Assembly (NCBI GenBank): GCA_010093515.1
Contig: MU001707.1
Coordinates: forward strand, 153,402 to 183,895
Source: Lineolata rhizophorae
Taxonomy: Eukaryota; Ascomycota; Dothideomycetes; Lineolatales; Lineolataceae
Length of the DNA: 30,494 nt
Direction of reading: 5' to 3'
The notes beneath the pieces are model-generated. The model was given only the letters and a program-made list of their open reading frames with translations. It was not told where the DNA came from and did no database searches. Shown piece by piece: positions 7,042 to 26,575 of the stretch. The position numbers and the translations under genes were made by a program. Each line of letters begins with the position of its first letter. Positions within the stretch are counted from its first letter, which is position 1.

Positions 7042-8129
7042 ATGTATCTCGTCAAGAGGAACGATGCTCTCGAGATCAACGGTTAGTGACTGCTTTCGTC
7101 TGAGTGATCTTGTAGAACGGTCGGATGCTAACGGCAAATTGCAGGCTTTATGGTCAACGGCGAGCGTGCCGATATCCACCAGACCGTTGAGGCCTCTGAC
7201 TGGTACTGGACCGTGACTGCCATTATGGGCCTCTCTACCATCGCCTTCTGGTTCTTGCGCTGGGTCAAGTCGTTCAACCGTCTTTACACGTCTTCGATGG
7301 CTGTCGCTACTCTCATTGCTGCTGTTGCCTACTTCAGCATGGCCTCGAATCTCGGCTGGGTCCCAATTGATGTTGAGTGGCATCGCTCAGACGACGAGGT
7401 TTCTGGCAACACCAGGCAAATCTTCTACGTTCGCTACATCATGTGGTATGTTGTCGTCGTGTTGTCAGATGTCTGTGGAGTATAGAGGCTAAGACTCGAA
7501 ATAGGTTCCTCACTCTGCCGATCATCCTCTCGGACGTCCTGCTCCTTGGCGCGGTCCCGTGGACGGCCATTGTCACCAACGTGATTGTGAGCTGGGTGTG
7601 GATTGTTAGCATCCTCATCGGCACCCTGGTCAGCTCGACGTACAAGTGGGGTTACTACACCTTCGGTGTCGTCTCCTTGCTCGCCATCTTCTGCACCCTA
7701 TTCATCGACGGCTTCAAGGGCGCCAAGGCGGTCGGCTCCGACGTCAACAGGACATTCCTCATCTCCGCCGCTACCATCTACATCGTCTGGATCTGCTATC
7801 CGGTTGCATATGGCGTTTGCGAATACGGCAACGTCATCTCACCTGCTTCCGAGTCCGCCTTCTACGGTGTTCTCGACGTTCTCACCATCCCTGTGCTAGG
7901 TGGCTTCCTTGCCTTGTAAGCAACTCCCTAGATTCCCACCCAATTCGGACTTCAGTTTGCTGACACATTTACCAGCGCCACGCGAAACATCGAACTGTCC
8001 CGTCTCGGCCTCAATCACACCGTCGCCGGCCACACCACCGAGAAGGGCCACACCACCGGCGCGACCAACGGCACCAACGGCGTGACCAATGGCACCACGC
8101 CCGCCACCGAACCTGCCCAGACAGCTTAA
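7042..8129 (+). CDS. Opsin-related seven-helix membrane protein (HSP30/YRO2/ORP type), no retinal lysine
   Basis: Exons 7042-7081, 7145-7445, 7505-7915 and 7976-8129 give 301 residues; all four join in frame across 59-63-bp introns. Seven hydrophobic segments span roughly residues 33-253. Helix C reads VRYIMWFLTLPIILSD, which aligns with the bacteriorhodopsin RYADWLFTTPLLLLD motif: the proton-acceptor Asp85 position is Met113 and Asp96 is kept as Asp124. Helix G reads FYGVLDVLTIPVLGG: Asp212 is kept as Asp238, but the retinal Schiff-base Lys216 is Ile242. The protein therefore cannot bind retinal in the usual way and belongs with the fungal opsin-related proteins (yeast Hsp30, Yro2, Mrh1; Neurospora ORP-1), plasma-membrane proteins linked to stress and weak-acid tolerance rather than light. 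The C-terminal tail (about 265-301) is a low-complexity Gly/Thr/Asn stretch with NGT repeats, presumably cytosolic. Confidence 0.93.
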
Positions 8130-10878
8130 GAATTTCCACTCGAGCATGTCTCGCGAAGCCTGGCGCTTATTTAATGAACGAACAACAACAACAACAGAAA
8201 GAGTCGCTCGGGCAAGCGCAATGATCGAAATGAACATGGATGTAGGGGAAGAGGATGGATGGACGAAAGCTGCTGGTCCGCTCGTTTTCACATCTCAATG
8301 GTGAATTTGACATTCTGCACCTTGGTCAGAAGGGGTTGTAATGTTTGCGATTCTTGTCGATACCCACTTTCGTTAGTGCATCATTGCATGTTATTACCTA
8401 GGCTCGGGTAAGAGGGATAACCGACGAAGGACGTAATGGCGGTCGTGGAAGTAATCGTAATGAATTGAAGCAAGTACTTTAACCAATTAGCAAAACGTTG
8501 GCTTGACTATAACGTAAAAATACGAGGGCTACATTAGCTGAACTTACATTTATGGTCTTTTTTATATGCTTATGCTCGCTTCGTAAGCTTTCTAATATAA
8601 TCTGCATACTCTAATAGTTACAAGCCTAGAAATTGCCCTTCTACTCAATTATTTGTCACCATCAGGAAGGAAGCGGCACGTTACATGCCAGCCCAAGAGG
8701 GAGTGTGGCATGGTTGGAAGACACAGACCACAATAAGGTCACGTGATCAGAATTGGATTCTGTAAGGATCCAACTCCGATCCAACACTTAGCTAGACAAT
8801 TCATTCTGCTACATCCATCATGCCCACAGTGCACATTGTGATAGACCTTCAATCCAACTCCAATCGTCCATCGATTGCACACCGATCAGAAATTCGCATC
8901 TCCACCACTCAATCCGCCTGCCAGAAGGCAGACCGCGACAGAGTGCTTAAGTACTCTACAGAAGGAAACCCTAGGCAGATAGACAATTTAACTCTACTTC
9001 AGTAGATATAGTTTTACTCTACAGAACACCAACTTTAGTCTTGGTTCAGAAACCATTGCCATACCGTGCATGTCACTCCTGGATCGAGAGTCGACCCGTT
9101 GGCCCATCCACAGTGTATCCAAGATCGATTCAGACTTTTACATTATTGTTATATCCTGAAAAAATTGAAAAGCGTATTTTAGAGGATTTCTTAACTAAGA
9201 TAGACTAGTGGAAAGCTACTATAGAGACAAAGCTTTGGAAGGTCGCCGAGCTTGCAAAGTTGGTTACTCTGCTGATATAGATAGTTGGTAGATTAGTAGG
9301 GAATACTAGGTAAAATTTGATCAATCGGCTAAAGCAACTTTTTCGAACTATATATTTCTATTTTTCACCGTTTGATCTTTGTTTATCTATAATTAGAGCT
9401 CTATCTCAATCTTACAAGTTCTATTTGCTTCTCTCGCTCTATTCACAGCTTACTTTACTCGTATTTTAAGGCCCTTGGAAACCCTAGTCAGAGAGGTTAC
9501 TCGTATAGACAAAAGTATATACTCCGTCTGTGAACGATTTATGGGCGGAATAAACTCGGAGCCGGCGCCATACGGCGCCAAAATCACGTGCCAATGCTAC
9601 CGCTTTCCACTCAGTTCACGATAGTTCCCCACCTCTGAAATCACTCTTATATCCTGCGTGTAGCAGCTCTAAATTTCCTCTTAAATAGCACAAAACTGGA
9701 CACTCTACATGTCTACAGGAGATGTAATGTTTGACGACGACAGGCTAGTTGAAGAAATGCTTCTTAGAAGTCCCTATACTTCAGAATGCCTGTGGCTATT
9801 CTTACCTATGCCTGTCCGCCTGGCGACTTTTCCGTAAGCCCCAGGGCGCCCACTATGACCCATGCTTGGAGACCTAGCGACATTCAAGGTTTAATCGCTC
9901 CGTGGAACAAACGCGACCGACGATCGGGAGGAGCAGCAAGGTCAGGATGAGGTCCGGAGGAAAGGAGCGGATACGATTAAATCTGTGACTTTTGCAAATT
10001 TGGTCGCAGAATTGCCTGGCTTAGTCTGCGGTGAACTTGATATCGAAGATGTTCTTAACCTGAGTCTTAAGAATCTGTATTCCTGCAACGTCGGCAGTAG
10101 ACGCTCCGGGAGCACGTAGTCCAATTTCTCGGACAATGAGCTGAAGAGAGGCTTATTTGCGAGGACGCTGTATCGAAAGCGACAACTGCGTAGCTGAAAG
10201 TTTCCTATAGGAAGAGAAGGCCTATTTTTCTCAATGGGGAGGGTTGTGTTCGTGTCGTCTCGGGGCCCCTTACGAAGAGCCTCCCAGGCTTCCCGCTGCA
10301 TTGTTTACGCGGCTTCATTCTGTCTGCGAGACTTAATGCCAGCGACAGGGTGCAAAGATGATACATGCCTGTATACAGAGTAGAGGGCGCTTAGCTGGCG
10401 AGCTCGGGTGCATAAATACTCAAACCCGAGGGCTGTGGCCGAGTGCAGTGGTAGCAAACCCCGCCGCGCAGCACACGTGCCTCTAGCGGGAAACGCGCTC
10501 TCACGTCGCTCTTCACACGCGCAACTGACCTCTGCGTCACAGATGCCGGCGTCCCTCCGCCACGACTTGGGCACGATGCGACTTCTCGGCGCCCAAATGC
10601 TCCGTGCTCCTCGCATATTCTTTTCGAGCTGGGCCGTCGCTCGCACGCGTACTCTGCCACGCGTGCTGCCTCCAGAGCTTCCGGCCTCCTACACCCGTGC
10701 CCGAAGACTATCGTCGCAGCCTCACTAATTGCAAGCGCGCCCTCTCCCTGCACCCCCAATCGCCCGGGCCCGCGCCCTTTCTGGCGACCAGTTCGTCGCT
10801 TTCGCGCACCCCGCCGCTGCCGCAGTTCACAGCGATTGTAGTTCGCTCGACCGCAACTATAACACTGCTGCTGCGCAT
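8130..10878. other. Gene-free interval, AT-rich between about 8480 and 9480
   Basis: The first 150-200 bases are probably the 3' UTR of the opsin-related gene. About 8480-9480 is AT-rich with many TA dinucleotides and broken frames, as expected for DNA degraded by repeat-induced point mutation. I cannot name a parent element. Landmarks are an 8-bp palindrome TCACGTGA at 8739-8746 and an inverted repeat GGCGCC-ATAC-GGCGCC at 9564-9579. From about 10400 the DNA becomes GC-rich and leads into the large ORF. Short open frames in 9942-10759 show no recognisable motif. Confidence 0.55.
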
Positions 10879-13800
10879 ATGCTCACATCTACGCCGGAGA
10901 ATAATACTGACGGTGGAACGCTGGCGGGCGTTGTCGGTAGTCATCGAGACACCGCACTACCGCCAGAGGTGATCCACGCGCTAGTCCAGCGTACTGGGGC
11001 GCTACACGCACAGCTACGGGAGCTCCAGAGGCGATGGTATCCGGAAGACTATAGGCCAGAGGGGGAAGATATTGCTGGCGGTGGAGAAGCGTCCATGTTA
11101 CTGCCAGGCGCAGCCCCCACAGCAGAGCTCGCCCGGCCATTGCTAATGCAGTCGTCCTCGCACCTTGCGACGCCTCCGTCTTCCACGACGCTACCCGCCG
11201 CCATTGACGCAAACGAAAAGGAAGATGACATTGGAACCGTCCTTTCCGACCTCGCGCGCCTTGTCTCAGAAGTCGGCGAATTCACGCACACGCCCATCCG
11301 CGTCATCACGTCCTCTTCCCCGTTTCCCCACTCATGCCGTGCGCGTGCGGACGCTTCCTCTTCACCTTTACAGCGTAGCCAGCATGCGCACGACCTTTTG
11401 AAGCGCCGACTCCTGTCACCGCGAAAAGCGCAGGGTGATCCTACCCGGCCGTGGGTGAACGTGGAGGGTACTGATGCCAGCACCGATGACGTAAGCGAGA
11501 TCACGACTGGAACTGCCGCTGAGAAGAGAGAGGACCTTGCTGCAAAGGCGCCTGCGTATTTGGGTCAGAAAGACGAGGTTCCGCCGACATCGCCGAGGCC
11601 GGGGTACCGGGAACTGCGTGGCAGCACTGACGTGGGCAGTCCGCCTTCGGTGCCTTCGGCGGGGCCATTGTCTACTGTTTCCCCGTCGGGACGCAACTTG
11701 CGCTTTAGCACCACTCCTGCCACTGGAGGAAACAGTCCGCGCGCCTGGCGTAGGGATTTCTCACTGCGGCGCGCGGCGCTGCTACATCGACGGAGTCTTC
11801 TCCCAGCTGTTGGGGGGGACGGTGACGGCGGCAGCGCTGCGGCCGGGTCTGCGTCTGTGTCTGAGTTTGGCGCCAGGTGTGGGTCTAGGTCCGATCATGC
11901 GACGAGTGTCGATAACGACGAGGAGTATGAGATTTTGTTTAGTGGTACTCTTCCGAGCACTCCAATCACGTGCACGGGCACGGAAACGGACCCTAAAGCG
12001 CGGACTAAGGTCGACAGGGAATGGGATGGCAAGAGCGGGTGGCTCAGGCGAAATGATAGAGAGAACGATGACGATGCGGTGATGCAGGACCGGGCTGAGG
12101 CCGAGGCCGAGGCATCAGCTAAGGACATGTTGATGGGTGGTTTAGCAACTGCCCCGGACGTGAAAGTCCGGCGGTCGTCTGGGAGGGTTGCGGTGCTTAA
12201 GAGCAAGGATGATAAGACATCTCTCAAGCAGGCGCATGAGGGTGTGACTGGAACCGCATGCATCAACTCTGAAGACCACGACACTGAGAAGGAAGATGCA
12301 AGACAAGAACACATGCAAGACACCGCATCATACAGCATCCATTCGTCGACAGAGCAAGTACAGAGCAGCCCCCCCACCATGTCCACCGGCGACGTCGACG
12401 AAGATGGGGAAGACATGGTTATTGACCTCCTCTCCAATTCCTCGCGGTATCCACGCCCTACTATTGCCAGAGAGACAGACTTTTCTGACGACGGCCGGCC
12501 CTTGCACAGCCACAGCTGCTGGCGACCAGGCTCAGAGCCGCGTTCTGGGCCAGTTGACGGGAATGAAATTATCGTCCTCCAGTCACCGCACACGCCGGAT
12601 CCCGGACCAACACAACCAGAACCCACAGTTGAAGCTCAGCAACCTCCTGTCCCGACAATTTTGGACTCATCTCTCACGTCATTTCCCGTCAATGTGTGCG
12701 TGCGTGATGCGTCGCCGCTATTCGTCCCGGGCGGCGGAAGCGATTCCTCGACTTCTCCCCTGTCCACGCCGCCAAGCCAGTTTGCGCCTAGCACGGAGAG
12801 CAAAAATGAAGCCGACCCCCCGAACTCCGCGACCTCCGCGTTCGAAGCCGTTGGCACCGCAGAAACCTATTTTTTGGACGGAGAGTATGCGAACGCGCTG
12901 CTTGCGACGCCGTCAGCAGGTAAGAACGAGCGCCAGGAGAGGCTGAGGAGGAGAAACTCGGTGAAGGATGGGCCGAGATTGACCTTGGGAATGGCTTTGG
13001 CGACGATTGAGGCGAGCAAAACAGATGCTGCTTCGCGGGATGAGAACGAGGAGATTGGTGAATACGAGGATACGAAGGCTAGGTGGGCTTCGAGTGAGGG
13101 GGAGGATGTGGTCGGTATTGTACAAGTTGGGTCTGAGTCCTCTAAAGGGAAGAGGAAGATCTTGTCTGAATCTAAAGCCGTACACGACGAAGAGCCGCAA
13201 AAAATGGCCGAAGGCTCGCAATACATGCCAGGCCAGCACAATGGTCCGGCATTCACAAATCAACAGGAAAATACTGCTACCGCACGCGCCGTAGGCCCTC
13301 CGGAACCGCGGCAGGATGTGGCTGCGCCAAACCCGTCCAGGGACCTGGACGCCCTCACGTCGCCGCTCGACGAGCCACGCCTACCTCCCATCCTTTCTCC
13401 CGCCAAAGACAAATGGGGCTTCTCAATCACACAGTCCGGCGCGAGTACCGATGCGGGCGAACACCCACTTGCGGAGAGTACGGGGTCCAGGACGAGCGAC
13501 GCTATTTATGCGCTGTCAGAATCACTGACTCCGCAAACGCACACAGGCAAAAGTAACCCAAACAGTCCAAAGATGCTATCTGATGCCACGGCCACGAGAG
13601 CGAGCGCGCAGGATCCGGAACTTGAACTTGTGACGCGTGGATTCACGACGCAGACTGCGAGCAACAACAGCATGACGCTGGAACGCGAGGCACCCGAAGG
13701 TGGCGAGGGCAAGGACGTCGTGGGGGCATTTATCAACTGGATCATGCACAGCAATGACGGGTGCTGGAAGCACGCCCCAACAAAGCACCTGCTAGGAAAC

Positions 13801-16716
13801 ATAGAAATACGCGCGCTCGACCATCTTCGGCTTAGTGTCGCCGAGGAAGAAGGCATCAAGGAAGGCTTGCGCGTGTGGGCTTGGGCCCGGAAATCGCACG
13901 CGTCTGGCACGCGGAGCAGCCCGACCACCAGCGCCCGGGCGCCGCCGTCGCAGGCAGCTGCGGAGCGCATGTTCGAGGATGCCGTCTTCGTCGGCGAGCC
14001 GAGGGATTCGTACTACTGCCGACTCGCGCCGAATGGCCAGGGCGACTCCTCGTGGGTCGTCATGGTGGGCTCGGGCTTGCTGCCGGACAAGGGCGATTTG
14101 CAAGACGAAGACACCCCCAGGAGGTGCGACGGCGTCGCGCTTACCACCCCGCTGACCGTTATCCCGCGCACGCTCAACCTCGAGCACGCGTTGATTGGCA
14201 CCGAGACCAGCGCCACGGTGTACATCTTCATCGTGATCCCAGCGAGCGAGCGGGCGAAGCTCGATGAGTGCATTAGGCGTGCTTTGGGGGAGGACCAGAA
14301 AGCCGACTTAATGGTAACGGCCTTAGGGGAGCCTAGAGTGCGCACGCGCGGCCAGCGGGGAGAAGGCAAGTTGTCCAAGCCCGAGTGCCCCGACTCCACC
14401 GTAAACCACCGCCTCCTCTTCATCCCGCCGAGCACGCTGCGCATGTGGAAGGTCGACTTTACGTGCCTGGTGCGGCGCGTCAATGATCGGCTCCTAGTCG
14501 GTAGTGGCGCCTGTATCCAGGCCGTTTGCTGCGGATTCCCTGGCCGGCGGACGGGGATCTGGAGCGTGCTGGAGATGTCGTGGCGGGCGTCTGCGGCAGA
14601 GCGAAACAATGTCGCGCGCGAGTGCAGTGAGTGCGCGAAGAGGCTGGCGGTGGGCGAGGGCAGTATACTGCCGTCCAAGACGTCATCCACTCAGGAGTGC
14701 GAGATACTTTTGTCGCCGCCGTGGCGGTCGCCGAAGTCGGAACTTCTCCCGCCGGCAGACGATCAATCGGCGGTTAGAGGCGTCGCCTCGCTGCGGCAGC
14801 GGCGGAGGTTGATGGACATCGCGAGCGAGGCCGTCCCCTTCGCCGAACTGCCACTACCGGACGAACGAGTCGACAGAGACCAGCCTCGCGCTCGGGGCGC
14901 CGCGCCCGAGGACTGGCTAATGACTCGTTCCTCAGATGACAACGACGCTACCGCGGAAGGCATGCACAGCCCGAACATCCCGCCGGCAGAGAGCGACGCG
15001 CCGCAAATCAAAAGGTCACCTTCGGAGTCACCGTCTGTCGAGATGCTGCCGCCGGAAGAGGACAGACAGGTGGAGGCGGACGCCCCTCGAAAGGACAAGG
15101 GCAAGGGCGTCGCGCACGCGGACGAGCGCCCGGCGTTGATTTCCATTAGCGACACGAGCGAAATACCGCAAATCTCCATCAACACCGATTCTGACATGCC
15201 TATCGCCGCGGCGCCCACAAGTCTCCTGCCCTTGGCAAGCAATGGCACCGATGAAGAGTGCGCCGACGAGATCCGCACCATTCGCGACTTCATCACCGAA
15301 CATGACATCCCGCCCGCTTTTTTGGATAGTGTAGGGCCGTCCGATTACTCCGAACGCCTTCACCAGTTCAACCCGGGCCAGTGGGTCGACGATGTCGTCC
15401 TACGCAGGATTCTGCTGCACATCACGGCAGGCCTACGCTATAGCGTTGTGGACAGTCTTCACCTCGACATCTCGCGACCAGAGACGCTGCTGCCGCACCT
15501 TCCCGATCGGCACGAATTCGACGGTACGATCCTCCCTTTCAGCGTCAACTTTGCGGACCAGACCGCGCACGCCGGAAAAAACCACTGGGTTGTCGCGGTG
15601 CTCGACTGGTCCGAGGGGATGTTCACTGGCTACGGCATACACAGGAATCTGGTCAAGACCTGGGCCAACGTTGTCGGCGCCGCCCTGTGTCGGAGACTCG
15701 GCCACGCCACGCAGCCGCTCGGCGCCAACGACGACGCGACCTGCGCGCTGCTCTGCGCCAACGCAGTGGAGCAGCACCTCGATGCTTTCCCAAAGAACAT
15801 CGCCCTTTCACCCGTGCAGCTCCGCGCCCGCTACTTCCGCATGCTACTCGAAGCGTGGGTAGCCCCTGCGCAACAGGCGATGCTAGCGGGGGCCGCGACC
15901 ACCCAAGCTGAGGCGATACCCCTCGCCAAGGTGCGGTCGGAGGAGAGCACGCCTGTGCCGGAGCTCAAGCTCAAGAAGTACACCTGCGTGTGCGACACCC
16001 CGGACGCGCCGGGCGTGCACACATGCATGGAGACAGACGTCAGAAGCCTCGGAAAAGAGTCCGGCAACGCGGAGCTGTTCTTGCAAGCGCTGCGGGCGGA
16101 GGATGGCAACATGCCCGACCGGCGCGCGCGCTTAATCCAGATGATCATGCAATGTTCGGCGGAGCATATAGGTCCCGCCCTACTCGAGCAATTCCCGCAC
16201 ATATTCCAGGGGTTCTTGCCCGACAGTCAGCCGGACAATGAGTTCGGCCGGAGGATGTTTTCGCTGCTGGAAAGGCTCGAGCGCATCAATACGCATACGC
16301 AGGCGAGCGCTTTTGCGCGCCGCGTCACGCTAGTAGAGCTCGCACGCGTCTTCGAGGCCGAGCTGTTACGGACCAAGAAGGACCTTCACGGAGAGCGCGC
16401 CAAGCGTATCCGGGCCTGCAAGTACAAGATGGAGAAGCCGCCAGATAACAAGGACAAGCGCGCACACGCCGAGACGCGCGCCCTTCAGAAGATGTTCAAT
16501 GGCCTCTCCGCCGACGACCCGCGTTGCAAAAAGGGCAAGTGGGCCGCTGTGAAGCGCCAGCTCAAACAAGGCCAGACGCTACGGTTCCTAGCTTCGCGAC
16601 TCGGCACATGGGTGCTAGCTGTGCTACCCGGGGACAGTATCAAGCCCAAGGCCGTGTATCCGACCGCGAAAAAGTGCTTCCGGCTATTTTGTAAAGACAT
16701 TCAGCCGAGCGAGTAG
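10879..16716 (+). CDS. Giant intronless protein with a divergent Ulp1/C48-like cysteine protease domain
   Basis: A single uninterrupted frame of 1945 codons; the frame is open from 10729, but the first ATG is at 10879. Residues 1 to about 940 are low-complexity, Ser/Pro/Asp/Glu-rich and probably disordered. About 945-1290 looks folded (hydrophobic/aromatic runs such as SATVYIFIVIPAS and WKVDFTCLVRRV), of no family I recognise. About 1290-1465 is again disordered. About 1480-1660 resembles the Ulp1/SENP peptidase fold: GQWVDDVVLRRIL (Trp1502), then KNHWVVAVLDW with a candidate His1569, then NDDATCALLCAN with candidate Cys1622. The Asp expected after 'GY' is Ile1587, and the oxyanion Gln position six before the Cys is Ala, with Asn at -5. 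It could thus be a pseudoprotease or use altered residues. After a linker comes CVC...HTC (Cys1703, Cys1705, His1714, Cys1716), a possible zinc knuckle, then about 230 helical, basic residues. CpG-rich coding DNA shows no sign of repeat-induced mutation. Host SUMO/ubiquitin-pathway protein or transposon-borne ORF are both possible. Confidence 0.75.
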   Translation: MLTSTPENNTDGGTLAGVVGSHRDTALPPEVIHALVQRTGALHAQLRELQRRWYPEDYRPEGEDIAGGGEASMLLPGAAPTAELARPLLMQSSSHLATPPSSTTLPAAIDANEKEDDIGTVLSDLARLVSEVGEFTHTPIRVITSSSPFPHSCRARADASSSPLQRSQHAHDLLKRRLLSPRKAQGDPTRPWVNVEGTDASTDDVSEITTGTAAEKREDLAAKAPAYLGQKDEVPPTSPRPGYRELRGSTDVGSPPSVPSAGPLSTVSPSGRNLRFSTTPATGGNSPRAWRRDFSLRRAALLHRRSLLPAVGGDGDGGSAAAGSASVSEFGARCGSRSDHATSVDNDEEYEILFSGTLPSTPITCTGTETDPKARTKVDREWDGKSGWLRRNDRENDDDAVMQDRAEAEAEASAKDMLMGGLATAPDVKVRRSSGRVAVLKSKDDKTSLKQAHEGVTGTACINSEDHDTEKEDARQEHMQDTASYSIHSSTEQVQSSPPTMSTGDVDEDGEDMVIDLLSNSSRYPRPTIARETDFSDDGRPLHSHSCWRPGSEPRSGPVDGNEIIVLQSPHTPDPGPTQPEPTVEAQQPPVPTILDSSLTSFPVNVCVRDASPLFVPGGGSDSSTSPLSTPPSQFAPSTESKNEADPPNSATSAFEAVGTAETYFLDGEYANALLATPSAGKNERQERLRRRNSVKDGPRLTLGMALATIEASKTDAASRDENEEIGEYEDTKARWASSEGEDVVGIVQVGSESSKGKRKILSESKAVHDEEPQKMAEGSQYMPGQHNGPAFTNQQENTATARAVGPPEPRQDVAAPNPSRDLDALTSPLDEPRLPPILSPAKDKWGFSITQSGASTDAGEHPLAESTGSRTSDAIYALSESLTPQTHTGKSNPNSPKMLSDATATRASAQDPELELVTRGFTTQTASNNSMTLEREAPEGGEGKDVVGAFINWIMHSNDGCWKHAPTKHLLGNIEIRALDHLRLSVAEEEGIKEGLRVWAWARKSHASGTRSSPTTSARAPPSQAAAERMFEDAVFVGEPRDSYYCRLAPNGQGDSSWVVMVGSGLLPDKGDLQDEDTPRRCDGVALTTPLTVIPRTLNLEHALIGTETSATVYIFIVIPASERAKLDECIRRALGEDQKADLMVTALGEPRVRTRGQRGEGKLSKPECPDSTVNHRLLFIPPSTLRMWKVDFTCLVRRVNDRLLVGSGACIQAVCCGFPGRRTGIWSVLEMSWRASAAERNNVARECSECAKRLAVGEGSILPSKTSSTQECEILLSPPWRSPKSELLPPADDQSAVRGVASLRQRRRLMDIASEAVPFAELPLPDERVDRDQPRARGAAPEDWLMTRSSDDNDATAEGMHSPNIPPAESDAPQIKRSPSESPSVEMLPPEEDRQVEADAPRKDKGKGVAHADERPALISISDTSEIPQISINTDSDMPIAAAPTSLLPLASNGTDEECADEIRTIRDFITEHDIPPAFLDSVGPSDYSERLHQFNPGQWVDDVVLRRILLHITAGLRYSVVDSLHLDISRPETLLPHLPDRHEFDGTILPFSVNFADQTAHAGKNHWVVAVLDWSEGMFTGYGIHRNLVKTWANVVGAALCRRLGHATQPLGANDDATCALLCANAVEQHLDAFPKNIALSPVQLRARYFRMLLEAWVAPAQQAMLAGAATTQAEAIPLAKVRSEESTPVPELKLKKYTCVCDTPDAPGVHTCMETDVRSLGKESGNAELFLQALRAEDGNMPDRRARLIQMIMQCSAEHIGPALLEQFPHIFQGFLPDSQPDNEFGRRMFSLLERLERINTHTQASAFARRVTLVELARVFEAELLRTKKDLHGERAKRIRACKYKMEKPPDNKDKRAHAETRALQKMFNGLSADDPRCKKGKWAAVKRQLKQGQTLRFLASRLGTWVLAVLPGDSIKPKAVYPTAKKCFRLFCKDIQPSE

Positions 16717-16768
16717 GTTTCCGTCGTTGTGTTCTCCTTTTTTTTTTCTTTTCCCCATGTACTTACAG
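16713..16768 (+). other. Intron-like segment at the end of the giant ORF
   Basis: GTAGGT (16713-16718) is followed by a long T/C tract and TACTTACAG ending at 16768, a near-ideal acceptor; the segment is 56 bp, matching other introns here. Removing it would replace the last codon and stop of the giant ORF with the short end E-DKATTT, and the new TGA (16788-16790) would overlap the ATG at 16787. I see no strong branch point in it. The tract could equally be an untranslated leader of the next ORF. Use in vivo is unproven. Confidence 0.35.
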
Positions 16769-16786
16769 GGACAAAGCTACGACAAC

Positions 16787-17572
16787 ATGACGGCAGACCG
16801 TGCTCTCTTCTTCACCTGTTGGCTTCCGCTTCTGCGTCCGGAGCTCCCGCGCTTATCCTCCGTCGACTCCCGCCTACTCCAGCCCATTGTCGAAGCCGCC
16901 GGCGCCGCACCGGCGCCGCTGTCGCAACCGTACCACGCGCTTCCCGCCGCGGCGTTCCACAGCGTCGAGACCGCAGGACCTTCGCTCAGAAATATCCGGC
17001 CCAAGCGTGCGGGCGAAGGCGATGACACGTTCGGAGCGCAGCGCAAGCGCCTACGCACCAAGCTCGAGGGGCCTCCGCATTTCGAGCAGCAAGCGCATGT
17101 GCAGAGCAGTCCAGCCTCCCCCACTTTCAACGGCATGTATAAATCCGTCCAGCCGCCCACGTACAGCAACGCGAATTATTACCTCACTCCGTACCAGCAC
17201 GACCCGACAAACCCGCAATATGCACCGTATGCTTCGCATTCTCACCACCCTCATCAGGGTGTTCCTCTCCAGGACTTTCAGCAATACCAGCTGCCACCGC
17301 CACCGCAGCCGGTCGCAACCCCCTCGCCTCCACCGCCTCCATTATGCGCGATGATGCCGCAGCAAGGTAGCGCGAAGAGCAACGGGGAGGAAAAGGAGCC
17401 GTGGATGGAGAAGGCTGGGCCGGCGCCGACGCCGGCAGGACCGGTCTCGCAGTTCTCGCTGGAGCGGCAGAAGCGGATGCTAAGCATGGAGAACGAGAAG
17501 ATGACATGGAGCTTGAAGAGGGCAGGAACACGGAATAGGAAGGTGTATGGAAAGAGTAATACAGGGTTGTAG
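16787..17572 (+). CDS. Hypothetical proline/tyrosine-rich protein with basic nuclear-type signals
   Basis: 261 codons from the ATG at 16787 (context CAACATGA); an in-frame ATG at 16757 lies inside the pyrimidine tract and is less likely. I do not recognise a family. The N-terminus (MTADRALFFTCWLPLLRPEL) is mildly hydrophobic. Two basic clusters, RPKR (71-74) and QRKRLRTK (85-92), resemble a bipartite nuclear localisation signal. Roughly residues 120-205 are rich in Pro, Tyr, Gln and His (YQLPPPPQPVATPSPPPPP), probably disordered. The last 40 residues are again basic and helix-forming (SLERQKRMLSMENEKMTWSL). It lies 70 bp after the giant ORF's stop on the same strand, so it may be part of the same transcription unit or an alternative exon. 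A chance ORF cannot be excluded, but the biased composition and single frame over nearly 800 bp favour coding. Confidence 0.5.
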   Translation: MTADRALFFTCWLPLLRPELPRLSSVDSRLLQPIVEAAGAAPAPLSQPYHALPAAAFHSVETAGPSLRNIRPKRAGEGDDTFGAQRKRLRTKLEGPPHFEQQAHVQSSPASPTFNGMYKSVQPPTYSNANYYLTPYQHDPTNPQYAPYASHSHHPHQGVPLQDFQQYQLPPPPQPVATPSPPPPPLCAMMPQQGSAKSNGEEKEPWMEKAGPAPTPAGPVSQFSLERQKRMLSMENEKMTWSLKRAGTRNRKVYGKSNTGL

Positions 17573-19795
17573 ATTCATTTCTTGTCTGGCGTATGCCGTG
17601 AAAGGGAGTTGCATAATGGCGTTTTTGTGGTGCATCATGGATGCGTTCCGCTTGGAAGTGATGGCGTTCTTGGAAAGATACCCACTATTTGCAATAGCGT
17701 CGGAGACAATCAAATGGCCGCGAAGAATGATTAGGATCCTATTCTTAATCATGGAAAGCTTGAATAATATTTTTTTACATATAGGTGGTCGAGTTTGCGG
17801 CGATTAAAACAGCTTTCCAATTATCGCGCCGAAGGCGGGACGTTTCTACCATGCAAGTAACATACGCATGGTCCACACTAATATGGGACTACCGCTATGG
17901 AAAAACAATGTTAGAGATTGGCATGCTTACGTCTCTGTATTTTCTGACAGTGCATGCTTGGTACTGTACAGTGACCCCTAGATTAATGGCGTGGCTTTGC
18001 TTAGCAAAAGAGCGCGGGTGAGTATCCAATATGCGCATCTTTTGACGCGGGCGTCACTGCGGGCATCATGAACTGCTCTCAGTTCTGCAAAAAAAACATA
18101 GGGATATGTATTTCTATCAGCATGCAAGGCCCGCAACTGCTGCAGCATGATTGTTATTTACACCAATCTAAAAATTTGTTCTACAGACCTGTTCTTAGCG
18201 TCTAGTTCCACGGAATTTCTTTGCACACTAGCGGCCTGGACAGATTTCGGCGGCGTACTAAGTACGCAATACTTCCCCCCCCGCTTACGTAGTATGCATA
18301 CCATGCGCGACTACACAAGCGCGGCAATTTTTCTACTAGGTGAGGAAAAGCACAGCTGCAACCATAGATTAGTCATGTATCCCCGAATATTTAACCAAAC
18401 CTCCTTCCTCGCGCACTACGCAAGCGCTCGGGAAAAGCCTATAAGTATAGGAATTTCTCGCGGCGAATCACGGGCGGTTTGTTGTTTAGTCGGTCGTCGG
18501 TCTTACTAGCTACGCCTAAGTGCATTGCGTCATGTTAATGAGTTTTGACCAGTTTTGTCCGCTGGCTCCCAGTTAGGTCTCTTTGGCGAGTTCAGCGTGG
18601 CAATAGCACCAAAACAAAAAGTAGTAGTCGAGATATTCTGAGCTCCTAGCTATAGACTTACTATATAAGTCTTTCTAATTAAGTCTATATCTATATAAAT
18701 ATTGTTATAGATATTATAGTAGCTACGTAACGCTGGGGGCTAAAGGAAATACCGACCCCGGTCTAGCGTATAGCGTATATAGATCGCAGAGTGCAGGTTT
18801 ACGTCAACCTCAACCCTAACCTCAACCTCGTCTACACTCTGTTTACCACCGTATATTCTATAACGCTCGACAAATCTTTATTCTACTTTTTCTTGTAATA
18901 TGCATTTGTACTAGCCCCTGCCGCTATATATAATGTCAGGTATAAAATATAACGCTCAAGTGTCTACCCATAAATATACGTTCAGTTGTCTTATTGTATA
19001 CGAAACCTAAGATAAGCATACACAAAGTTACGAGCTTGAGCCTTTAAGCTACAAGAATTGCATGGCATAGTGTAACAAGTCCTCCCAACCCATCCTACAT
19101 GACATGCATTGTTGCCCGACCGCTCTCACCATCCATTGCCCAAATCTTCTTTGGCGGCAGCCTTAGCTATTCAGTGAACGGGCCACAGCTTATAAGGGCT
19201 AAGCTTCGCTGCAGTTTTCTCCTAGTCTGTTGTCTGCGACGGTACATCAAAATGCCAGAATATTCTATTGTGTAGTTTATCTATGTATATACCATGACTA
19301 CAAGTTCAGATATTAGTCCAACATCCTCAGTGCCAACTAGCACCGTAGACCTAGACTTGCGGGAGCGAAGGACATTAACGATAACCGCACTAATGCGCAT
19401 AAGTACTCGCTCCGCAGTAGCGGGACATCTGGCAACCCTTAGCATTATAATCGCTGAATGATTAAAACGACCGCTTAGGCCAGTTCGGTCGGCCGTCTTA
19501 AAGAGCTAGCGGCCGCTAGGGACAACACGACTATCGCTACAACATGAAGTACAGGGAAGAACACGCAGCAGAGACAAGACTATATTGCACATGTAAAAGT
19601 ATGGGGTGCAGCCCCGGGAAGACTATATAGTATAGGGGTACGTTCAAAGATCGCTAAAGCGGGGCACAGCACGTACATGCCGTCAAGACTCTACCGCATG
19701 CACACATAACCCATTGACGCTTTGAACACCATCCCAACGTTAAAAAAGTGTCCCTCTCATCAACAGCGGCAAGACTACCAAACTCCCTTAAACCT
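17573..19795. other. Gene-free interval, AT-rich between about 18630 and 19080
   Basis: No supported gene. Open frames such as 17785-18021 and 18147-18509 have no recognisable motif. About 18630-19080 is AT-rich with many TA steps and resembles mutated repeat DNA; I cannot assign it to an element. One CAACCTCAACCCTAACCTCA stretch near 18805-18830 contains a single CCCTAA unit, which is not a telomere array. The 12-mer TACGTAGTATGC at 18286-18297 also occurs at 2837-2848. Confidence 0.5.
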
Positions 19796-20781
19796 CTATT
19801 GTCTCAGTCGCTCCCTCCCATCACCGGGTAGCTCGACGGGCGGCGTAAATGAATCAGGTGGCAACTCTTGGACCACCGTTTGCCCCGCGTTCACGCCAGC
19901 CGGAACGTCTTTATACGGTGGGTCTTGTTGCGATTGGTTCACGCCCATGATCAGTCCATGGTTTTGGGACGCCCCTTTCTGCCGCCAGTTGCGCCAGAAA
20001 AAGAAGCAGACGACGGCGACAGCGATGACACCGACTGAAACGCCAACGCCAATGCCGGCTTTTGCGCCGGAAGAGAGGCCGTCGGAATGAGGGAGCGAAC
20101 GCGCAGTCGCCGTAGCTGAAGGCGATGCTATTTTCGAATCAACATACAGCCCGGGAACTCTGATGACGGTGGACGGCCGAAGTGGACTTACAAGCCGCGG
20201 TGGCTGTCGCGGATGTCTCGGGGAACGTCGAGGTCTAGACGATAGCGCCAGCCAAGAAGACGGCGGGCCCGATGTCGAGCTGCCGCGAGCGGTCATCGCA
20301 GCAAGAATAGTCGTCTTCTTCCGCCAGCGGCTGCGTAGCGTTGTAGCTACAGCAGTAGCTGTCGGCGGAGCAGGCGAGCGCAGGCCAGTTAACTCTCGGA
20401 GCGTCGGAGTCTGGTTGAGGTGGGGTCGAGTGAGCAAGATGGGCGACGCAGGAATTGAACAGTTAGTCCGTTGGCGTAGGCTGACCTACGAGTGTCGTTG
20501 GTGTTGCAAAAAGACGGGCAAGCGCTGGAGCGCCACGCCGGATCTGTGCACGACTCTCTCCAGTACCGATTTATATTTCCCTCCAGCGAGCCTTTGCAGA
20601 GGCCATTAGTGAGGCACTCGTCACCCAAAACGCAGCAGTGACTATGGTCCGCGGTAGAGTTGCAGACGAACCAGTCGGTCGTGTCGGAAGTCGAGCCATC
20701 GGGAAAGTAGCAAGCCTGTGCCAAGATAGTTCCGCACAGCGAAAGCTGCGCGAAGAAGGCTCGCGCATCGGAAGCGTACAT
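19796..20781 (-). CDS. Cysteine-rich secreted-domain, single-pass membrane protein; frame interrupted by one TAG
   Basis: Exons on the minus strand are 20781-20490, 20410-20192 and 20127-19796 (introns 79 and 64 bp; the first has a CTAAC branch site), giving 281 codons. A signal-peptide-like start (FFAQLSLCGTILAQA) leads to CYFPDGS at residues 24-30, then VCN, HCC, YWRESCTDPAW (residues 73-83), SYCCSYN and SCCDD. This cysteine pattern is the fungal 'CY(F/Y)PDG ... WRESCTD' ectodomain, found in Pezizomycotina surface proteins. It is followed by a Ser/Thr/Ala stalk, a transmembrane helix (GIGVGVSVGVIAVAVVCFFF) and a basic cytosolic tail with proline motifs. The stalk joins the ectodomain in the same frame except for a TAG at 20237-20235 (codon 156). 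If real, translation gives a 155-residue secreted form without the anchor. A skipped-segment splice (GTAGCT donor within YCCSYN, same phase) would remove the stop but also the conserved CC motifs. A sequencing error or young pseudogene is possible. Confidence 0.75.
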
Positions 20782-21488: not shown

Positions 21489-22994
21489 TCATCCCCTCTC
21501 AAACTCGAACTGGTAGGGCAGTTCATTCTGTCCAGGGCTGGGAGTGAGCCTGATGACGCTCCTGGCTGATCTCAATGACGAAGCGGCCGACGAAGACAGT
21601 TCTGTCTCGGTCTGGAACGTTGGTCTCTGCTGCTGTTGGCGTGAGCCCATTGAGACACCGGAAGGCGTGCGCGGCGCGGCCCGCGTTCCCGATGACACCT
21701 TAGCGGCGCGCGATGGCGCGGTGCGGATGGTGCCGGTGACGCTGTTTGAAGACGAGAGGGACTCGGAAGAGGAAGGTTCGCTGCCCGCGTGCGGCGGGCG
21801 AGGCGTGTAGAAAGGCATGCGGCTGCCTGACTGAGTCGACGCGTCCGATCCGCTCTCTCTCCTCTCCAGATGGCCTTCGCTGTAGTATCCGCTACCATTA
21901 GCAAAGCTCTGGTGGTCACTATCGGCGTCTTCATCGCTGTCTCCATGTTCATCCTCATCCTTCACACTCGCTCTCAATTCCGCCACCACGTCCTCTTCTA
22001 GCCCGTTCATCCCGCCCAGTAGCTCCGCAAAGGCGTCCATGAGAACGCGGAATTGCTCCTCTGTAGCCGGGGTCGGCCCGAATCTCGCACGCTCGTACTG
22101 CGCCACGAAACGTGCCCCGAGTGTCGGCAGCTTTATCAATCCGAACGACGTCAGCCGCCCGATGTATTCGCGCAGAGTCATAGCGGCCGGCCGGCGCAGC
22201 GCTGCGACCACGCGCGCGTCCGGCAAGGCGTCGAACGCACCCGGCATTTGCCCCTCCGCGCCTTCGTCCCCCTGATCTTGGGCGTGGTTTCCCGGCGGCT
22301 GCGGCGCAAATGCGGGATCCACGGGCGCCATGCTGACGGCACGCGCTTCGATCAAGTTTGGCAGCTCGCGGATCACGCTGAGGAACTGAACGTTCGGTAG
22401 GTCCGGGCTCGCAGGGCAGGACCATCCAGGGTGCTCGATCGCGCCCCAGGGAGGCCGTTCTGCGCTCGCGATCGGTATTGCGACGGCGCTCCACCCGCCG
22501 CGCTTGCCGGTCAGGCGACGTTTGAAGCCCTGCGCATGCGTGAGAGCGTGCGGCGCGCGGTCGGCCGTCGCCGGCCGCTGCAGGTTCAGGTGGTGGCTCG
22601 TGGTGCGGGAGGCGCTGGCCGGGGAGACGACTTCGATGGCATTGGATATATCGCGCGGGCGCGAGTCCCAGGCGATCAGAGCGGAGCGCTCGAGCTGCTT
22701 GGCGATCAGACGACGCACGTTGGTGCCGACCTCGCCGGGCTCGACCGGGATGTAGGCTTTGGGGATGGCAGCGAGGGCGGCGCGGTTGGTGTAAAGGCGC
22801 GAGGCGTAAACAAAGATGACGAGAAGGGCCGTTATGAGATGTGCGCCAGCGATGACAAAGATGTTCTCGATGTTGCTATTGCGGTAGGACTGGTAGATTG
22901 TGTCCCCAGGGGTCACGGCGATGAGGACGAGTACGAGGATGAAGAGGCCCGTGTACGTCGAGCTGTACCAGATGCGGAAGAGCGGAACGCGCAT
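21489..22994 (-). CDS. dlt1: Dlt1-like protein (defect at low temperature 1)
   Basis: A single-exon frame of 501 residues. The N-terminus FRIWYSSTYTGLFILVLVLI plus the PGDTIYQSYRNSNIENIFVI loop is the hallmark of fungal Dlt1. Two transmembrane helices lie at about residues 14-30 and 43-63. A conserved cytosolic segment follows (AYIPVEPGEVGTNVRRLI, about 80-97; RSALIAWDSRPRD). The middle holds the second conserved block (TLREYIGRLTSFGLIKLP, RVLMDAFAELLGGMNG). The last 150 residues are acidic then Ser-rich and probably disordered, as usual in filamentous fungi. In yeast, loss of Dlt1 causes a cold growth defect; the biochemical role is unknown. The ATG at 22994 starts exactly where family members start. 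It lies downstream of, and in the same orientation as, the FAD monooxygenase, with 0.9 kb between them, so separate transcription is likely. Confidence 0.93.
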   Translation of the reverse strand: MRVPLFRIWYSSTYTGLFILVLVLIAVTPGDTIYQSYRNSNIENIFVIAGAHLITALLVIFVYASRLYTNRAALAAIPKAYIPVEPGEVGTNVRRLIAKQLERSALIAWDSRPRDISNAIEVVSPASASRTTSHHLNLQRPATADRAPHALTHAQGFKRRLTGKRGGWSAVAIPIASAERPPWGAIEHPGWSCPASPDLPNVQFLSVIRELPNLIEARAVSMAPVDPAFAPQPPGNHAQDQGDEGAEGQMPGAFDALPDARVVAALRRPAAMTLREYIGRLTSFGLIKLPTLGARFVAQYERARFGPTPATEEQFRVLMDAFAELLGGMNGLEEDVVAELRASVKDEDEHGDSDEDADSDHQSFANGSGYYSEGHLERRESGSDASTQSGSRMPFYTPRPPHAGSEPSSSESLSSSNSVTGTIRTAPSRAAKVSSGTRAAPRTPSGVSMGSRQQQQRPTFQTETELSSSAASSLRSARSVIRLTPSPGQNELPYQFEFERG

Positions 22995-25718: not shown

Positions 25719-26575
25719 CGTCTGGTCTCGGGCGGCTGCGCGTCTTGTTCTGTGACGAAATCGGGGAGCGCGGGCTTGCGAGGAGGCGAGGGAGGAGCGG
25801 ACAGGCTCCCGGCGACCGTGTCGGCCTGGCTAAGTAATAAAGTTGGCCCCATCGTGACGAGCGCTGGCACTGGAGTCGTGTGAGGCTGGCCGAGTCGGAC
25901 CCCACAGCCGCGACGGGGCCCTTGGCGAAGCCGGGCCCCGCACAGGTACAATGTGGGGAGCCCTCGGCTGCCGGCGTTCAGCGCGCCAAAGGAGACGTCG
26001 GGCCGTCTCGTCGGCCGAGCCCAGCCGAGTCAGCGGGCCGCCACGGGGCATCTGCGCACGATTCGTGCTGCGTCACCGCCGCCTGCGCCACAGCCTCGGC
26101 CCTCCGGTCGGGCCGGGCCAGCCACTTCTGCCCCGTGCAGCTCGTCTGGAATCCTCGCCCGGCATCTTTCCAAGCGATTCCACTCTCGTTCGGCCTTTAT
26201 TCCGCGCTTCTTATATTCCATGCACCGCCCGCGGCTTGCTTCCTTCCCCTGACTTCGCCCGCGGTCTGGGATTGTCCTAAGCAAACCGGCGTAGGTGAGT
26301 TTGCCCGTTTGCCAACCTCGCGCTCGATTTGCTTGCCCCAACTCCCTCATGATGAAGCCATAGCTGGCACCAGGCCGAGAAAGACTTGTACTCTACTTGC
26401 TGCGGAATAGCTGTTGCTGGAGACGCGCATGTCTCCATGCCCTGACCTTATACTCTATACGCGCACCCTCAACTGTCTCTGGTTTGGAGAAATTGCTGAC
26501 AGTCCTCGCCAAGCCAATTTTTGTCAACAACACGTGCGAAAACCTCCCCACGTCCGCGCCGCATTCGCCCTCACC
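25719..26575. other. Divergent promoter region between the FAD monooxygenase and aha1
   Basis: GC-rich DNA with open frames on both strands whose translations are Arg/Pro/Ser/Ala-rich and motif-free. I read them as noncoding. The last 150 bases before aha1 are the likely leader, and contain a CACGTG at 26531-26536. Several TTCC units occur near 26166-26220, but they do not have the alternating 5-bp spacing of a canonical heat-shock element. Confidence 0.5.

Follow-up and report, generated by a model that had tools for sequence, protein, structure and literature searches.

The closest described systems to the locus considered here are the Ulp1/SENP peptidases (MEROPS family C48, PF02902). The protein encoded at this locus shares with them the order of three landmarks, W-x-x-D, His-Trp and Cys, at roughly alike spacing. 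It differs in having no Pfam match, in bearing Gly at H+17 and Ala at C-6 (positions counted from the His and the Cys, respectively), and in being much longer, with unassigned regions on either side of the domain. Ulp1 domains also occur in certain DNA transposons, Ginger among them. The present locus resembles these elements in holding a Ulp1-like domain within a large open frame, whereas no terminal repeats, no further copies and, in the frames scanned, no transposase were found here. Among ascomycetes, Aspergillus niger has three C48 peptidases, which the available text of one report describes with a Q-x5-C motif together with His, Asp and Cys (PMC7804941). In Parastagonospora nodorum, the accessory chromosome AC23 carries two genes named 'Ulp1 protease', SNOG_16274 and SNOG_16214, according to the accessible part of its description (PMC8146201). 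As far as that part of the source goes, the likeness is one of Ulp1-like genes additional to a basic set in an ascomycete; however, the P. nodorum genes are two and lie on an accessory chromosome, whereas the present gene is one and lies beside ordinary host genes, and the two cases are likened by description, not by sequence (PMC8146201).

The window analysed here is a stretch of 30,494 nucleotides of Lineolata rhizophorae DNA and makes up the right-hand end of contig C38 (183,895 bases, 6,601 of them N) in an assembly of 30,968,845 bases and 48 contigs. Coordinates are window positions unless prefixed C38. On the forward strand, an open frame runs uninterrupted through 1945 codons from the ATG at 10879 to 16716, the last base of a TAG stop. 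At the frame's own base composition, the log10 probability of an open run this long is about −27 per start. Codon usage was scored against a training set made up of the window's FAD-monooxygenase and DUF4129 genes plus the Ulp2-like and Ulp1-like genes of the host. Of the six frames, only this one scores above zero (+0.135); the two remaining forward frames give −0.379 and −0.470, and those of the opposite strand lie between −0.06 and −0.48. The third-position GC is 0.59–0.63 over residues 1–945 vs. 0.75–0.79 over residues 946–1945, and the two neighbour genes measured gave 0.75 and 0.79. Codon score and third-position GC thus indicate that the frame is coding, with a first half that is looser in codon composition. 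The first-pass annotation had reported a single open frame of about 6 kb, which the ORF call and the host-like codon usage confirm, and had seen no repeat-induced mutation (RIP) inside it, in agreement with a TpA/ApT ratio (a RIP index) of 0.62 vs. the mildly RIP-like 1.04 and 1.15 of the two flanks. It had also set the intronless length against nearby genes with 2–3 short introns; such a length is not exceptional here, since the same contig holds two other long frames, of 1871 and 1444 codons (stop-to-stop). These two frames, at C38:131222-141784 on the minus strand, encode low-complexity, apparently disordered proteins, and the 1871-codon frame has no Pfam match.

Searches of the genome with residues 1–944, with residues 945–1945 and with the C48-like part returned the gene itself as the sole match, so that the copy number in the assembly, which the first-pass annotation had proposed to check, is one. 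By ORF call, codon usage, length statistics and copy number, the 1945-codon frame is a real, single-copy host orphan gene. A match of the whole protein to a conserved single-copy family was looked for and not found: Pfam and PHROGs gave none, NCBIfam gave weak matches far under the cut-off, and the PDB sequence search returned nothing for either the full ORF or residues 941–1300, so that none of these collections holds a convincing match. A literature search on the protein found no paper. Scans of two contig collections likewise confirmed none of the pattern-matching stretches that they returned, whether viral_contigs was scanned with residues 1475–1945 (one stretch), genome_contigs with residues 945–1945 (22 stretches) or viral_contigs with the host's three C48 domains (29 stretches); because fungi are scarce in these collections or missing from them altogether, absence there tells little about conservation.

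The three host C48 domains come from a PF02902 search of the genome, which found three other genes, all above the cut-off, with the 1945-codon gene absent from the matches. Judged by their closest PDB matches, they are a Ulp2/SENP7-like gene on contig C17 (E 5.1e-27), a Ulp1-like gene on C7 (3.8e-19) and a SENP8-like gene on C13 (6.0e-12). Their count equals the number published for A. niger in the text available (PMC7804941). These three canonical genes appear to do the ordinary C48 work of this genome.

Residues ~1490–1675 of the orphan protein (15346–15903, forward strand) likely form a divergent C48 (Ulp1/SENP)-like domain; this is the best reading of the region, with moderate support from landmarks and a profile score. 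All landmarks are present in C48 order. By comparison with C48 sequences, W1502-V-D-D (15382–15393) matches the W-L-N-D motif, H1569-W1570 (15583–15588; also aligned by HH-suite) matches the catalytic His-Trp, and C1622 (15742–15744) matches the catalytic Cys. A regular expression for these landmarks, composed post hoc with the domain already in view, matched once, at the domain itself, in the 133,752 residues of contig frames of at least 100 codons; it matched none of 20,000 shuffles of residues 1476–1700 and two of four true C48 sequences. A looser HW-to-Cys pattern was found in all four true sequences; on the contig it occurred once, and 7 of 20,000 shuffles contained it. A whole-domain profile built from the four C48 sequences scored −62.9 (shuffles: mean −95.1, sd 9.0). 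Among 2000 shuffles, 6 scored as high; among 391 windows of other contig ORFs, none did. Against this, two overlapping windows of the same ORF, starting at 1581 and at 1591, contain neither the W nor the His-Trp landmark and scored −60.7, slightly above the domain itself.

The strongest rival is that the protein is an orphan unrelated to C48, in which the His-Trp and Cys came to stand in this arrangement by chance; we consider this unlikely, yet a chance to be taken seriously. It is favoured by the lack of any family or PDB match, including a Pfam C48 search at E up to 10 that returned neither the ORF nor two C48 segments. The HH-suite comparison with the host C48 alignment points the same way, being weak (score 20.5, P 0.032, over 22 columns round the His-Trp, reached by 3 of 200 shuffles) and nearly equalled by residues 901–1276 of the same protein, which scored 18.8–19.8. 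Single-sequence AlphaFold models are uninformative, with pLDDT 44.0 and pTM 0.38 for residues 1475–1700 and pLDDT 37.8 and pTM 0.28 for residues 1475–1945. In the shorter model, at this low confidence, a helix follows W1502, strands span 1549–1556 and 1569–1576, and a helix spans 1616–1636 across C1622, an order that we take to match the C48 topology; in the longer model, also of low confidence, both strands are absent. A Foldseek search with the 1475–1700 model (pLDDT 44.0) gave 125 PDB matches, none at E ≤ 0.001 and with no C48 structure among the best 50 of them. Two PDB sequence matches of the C48-like segment (E 0.15 and 0.24) were set aside as chance level. Against a chance arrangement stand the full landmark pattern, absent from every shuffle and unique on the contig (although this pattern was post hoc), and the profile score that so few shuffles reached. 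Of the divergent Ulp1-like domain proposed at first pass, the landmarks and the profile score thus speak in favour, whereas Pfam, HH-suite and AlphaFold lend it little or nothing. The same annotation had placed a peptidase-like domain with a W...NHW...C pattern at the C-terminus; the W, His-Trp and Cys do exist, but about 245 residues lie beyond the C48-like part, which is therefore not the C-terminal end. It made no mention of the Gly at the Asp position, the Ala at the Gln position, the three canonical C48 genes elsewhere in the genome or the second coding frame that follows.

If the region is a C48-like domain, the next question is whether it still cuts. The Asp and Gln positions were compared by ungapped spacing with the host Ulp1, DEN1-like and Ulp2-like genes and with PDB 6dg4. 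The C48 catalytic Asp position, H+17, is Asp in three of the four compared enzymes, all but the Ulp2-like one, which has a long insert in this region; the orphan protein has Gly1586 (15634–15636). The C-6 position is Gln in all four and Ala here, with a Gln (Gln1612) at C-10 instead; the Q-x5-C motif, as given in the text available for A. niger (PMC7804941), is accordingly absent from the domain. The His-to-Cys distance is 53 residues vs. 59, 63 and 65 in three of the compared enzymes and 140 in the Ulp2-like gene. Gly1586 and the Ala at C-6 together mean that the Asp and the usual place of the Gln are lost while the His and the Cys are kept, and the domain is probably catalytically degenerate and inactive. 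The His-Cys dyad might nevertheless still be active. A divergent yet active C48-type protease, working with a His1569–Cys1622 dyad or with another acid and Gln1612 after a local insertion, would agree with the retained order of His-Trp and Cys and with the Gln at C-10; however, the Asp and Gln positions are both altered by ungapped spacing, and we give this alternative a rather small chance.

Residues 1–945 of the protein (10879–13713, forward strand) contain few order-promoting residues and are probably disordered. They hold four SIM-like motifs vs. a shuffled mean of 1.38, with at least four in 25 of 500 shuffles; one further motif lies in residues 1301–1475 (199 of 500 shuffles), and two other long disordered proteins, taken as controls, have one each. 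The SIM-like signal of the disordered half is weak. Residues 945–1290 (13711–14748, forward strand) are of mixed composition and possibly folded, with no family found. The C-terminal region, residues 1700–1945 (15976–16713, forward strand), is helical in the low-confidence AlphaFold model and has no family above the cut-off: assignments of residues 1701–1945 to DUF2267 (E 0.0057) or MMU163 (E 0.068) were rejected, both Pfam matches being below cut-offs, as were seven PDB sequence matches (lowest E 0.88). At the start of this region, an arrangement C-x-C-x9-H-x-C found by eye at residues 1703–1717 (15985–16029) is a possible metal-binding hairpin and could bind metal.

The gene may extend past its TAG. 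After a gap of 40 bases, a frame of 271 codons, likewise host-like in codon usage, follows on the same strand (16757–17572; codon score +0.114, with −0.318 and −0.347 for the two alternative forward frames), which could be a separate gene or a 3′ exon and thus part of the same gene. It has no family in Pfam, NCBIfam or PHROGs and no second copy in the genome, the two rows returned (E 0.4 and 3.4) being chance. Forty-six frame-compatible junctions would join the two frames; none is convincing, and a strict branch motif is absent from all 25 of the 46 that were listed. A pyrimidine run and ttacag (16763–16768) lie at the onset of the 271-codon frame.

Ordinary host genes surround the locus. By family match, the neighbours include a short-chain dehydrogenase (E 4.6e-26), Aha1 (AHSA1, 2.8e-21), a Suc_Fer-like gene (9.9e-46) and an FAD-monooxygenase (5.7e-72, Pfam). 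A gene at 21489–22994 matches Pfam DUF4129 (E 1e-06) and presumably resembles the fungal DLT1 protein. The C/D-box snoRNA Afu_190, first described from Aspergillus fumigatus, is found at 26347–26446 (60.3 bits), where it overlaps the first Aha1 frame in part. These surroundings fit a filamentous ascomycete as the probable host. On either side of the orphan gene lie AT-richer flanks with no evident genes, at 8401–10400 on the left and 17573–19750 on the right. In 500-base windows, their GC is 0.37–0.53 (8501–10500) and 0.39–0.48 (17501–19500), which bears out the AT-rich, gene-free blocks noted earlier on both sides. Each flank contains a short dispersed repeat, at ~8735–8946 (14 of the 16 rows of a genome search are matches elsewhere) and at ~18717–18882 (33 of 34 rows), and the two are unrelated to each other. 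The right-hand repeat forms inverted pairs on contigs C6 and C23, much as the termini of a small non-autonomous element would.

Elsewhere on the contig, a 713-codon frame at C38:82817-84955 is of hAT transposase type (dimerisation domain E 1.2e-16, with a BED zinc finger match just under the cut-off). Three FunK1-type (PF17667) kinase loci lie at C38:15871-17047, 87468-88719 and 145821-147139; across the genome, 33 matches to FunK1 occur, of which 11 contain in-frame stops, mostly TAG.

The first-pass annotation had offered a rapidly evolving host SUMO-pathway protein or the coding part or cargo of a large element, and of these the host protein is favoured by the single copy and the host neighbours, whereas the element is left without terminal repeats or a transposase to support it. 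No 11-mer, inverted or direct, is common to 8101–10878 and 16717–20400, and scans of the ORF, of the downstream frame and of part of the window's other frames found no transposase family. Within the window, a single long inverted pair is present (31 nt, 77%); its arms, at 7614–7644 and 22952–22982, fall in unrelated coding regions (the frame 7377–7919 and the gene 21489–22994). That the gene belongs to a large mobile element, as coding part or as cargo, or was domesticated from one, is therefore improbable: Ulp1 domains do occur in some DNA transposons, both flanks hold short dispersed repeats, and hAT and FunK1 genes lie elsewhere on the contig, but the gene is single copy with host genes on both sides, its flanks share no 11-mer, the two flank repeats are unlike each other, and the only inverted pair falls within two unrelated coding regions.

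We tentatively favour, at somewhat less than even confidence, a lineage-restricted, single-copy gene of the host's nuclear genome whose divergent C48-like domain binds rather than cuts SUMO or another ubiquitin-like protein. The frame, its codon usage, its single copy, the landmarks and, by ungapped spacing, the two substitutions are observed; the fold, the loss of activity, the ligand and the role of this protein we infer. The tail of SUMO or of a different ubiquitin-like protein would sit in the C48-like groove and not be cleaved efficiently; extra SUMO contacts would come from the SIM-like motifs in the disordered half, and partners would be recruited by the regions on either side of the domain. 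Taken together, these three properties would make the protein one that reads ubiquitin-like tags, or serves as a scaffold for them, and does not erase them. A further step, which we regard as doubtful, is that a fungal lineage converted a duplicated SUMO protease into a large protein that reads ubiquitin-like tags without catalysis. It would then have a C48-fold pseudo-protease architecture, in which a SIM-bearing disordered half, an unassigned folded region, a possible metal-binding hairpin and then a helical region accompany the domain, an arrangement that is to be held just as doubtful, jointly with the duplicated protease.

If the binding reading is untrue, the finding is an ordinary one, another orphan fungal gene. 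If it is true, a C48-fold protein would have swapped cutting for binding beside three intact ordinary C48 genes in this lineage, and would provide a concrete test case for SUMO-pathway enzymes evolving into binding proteins.
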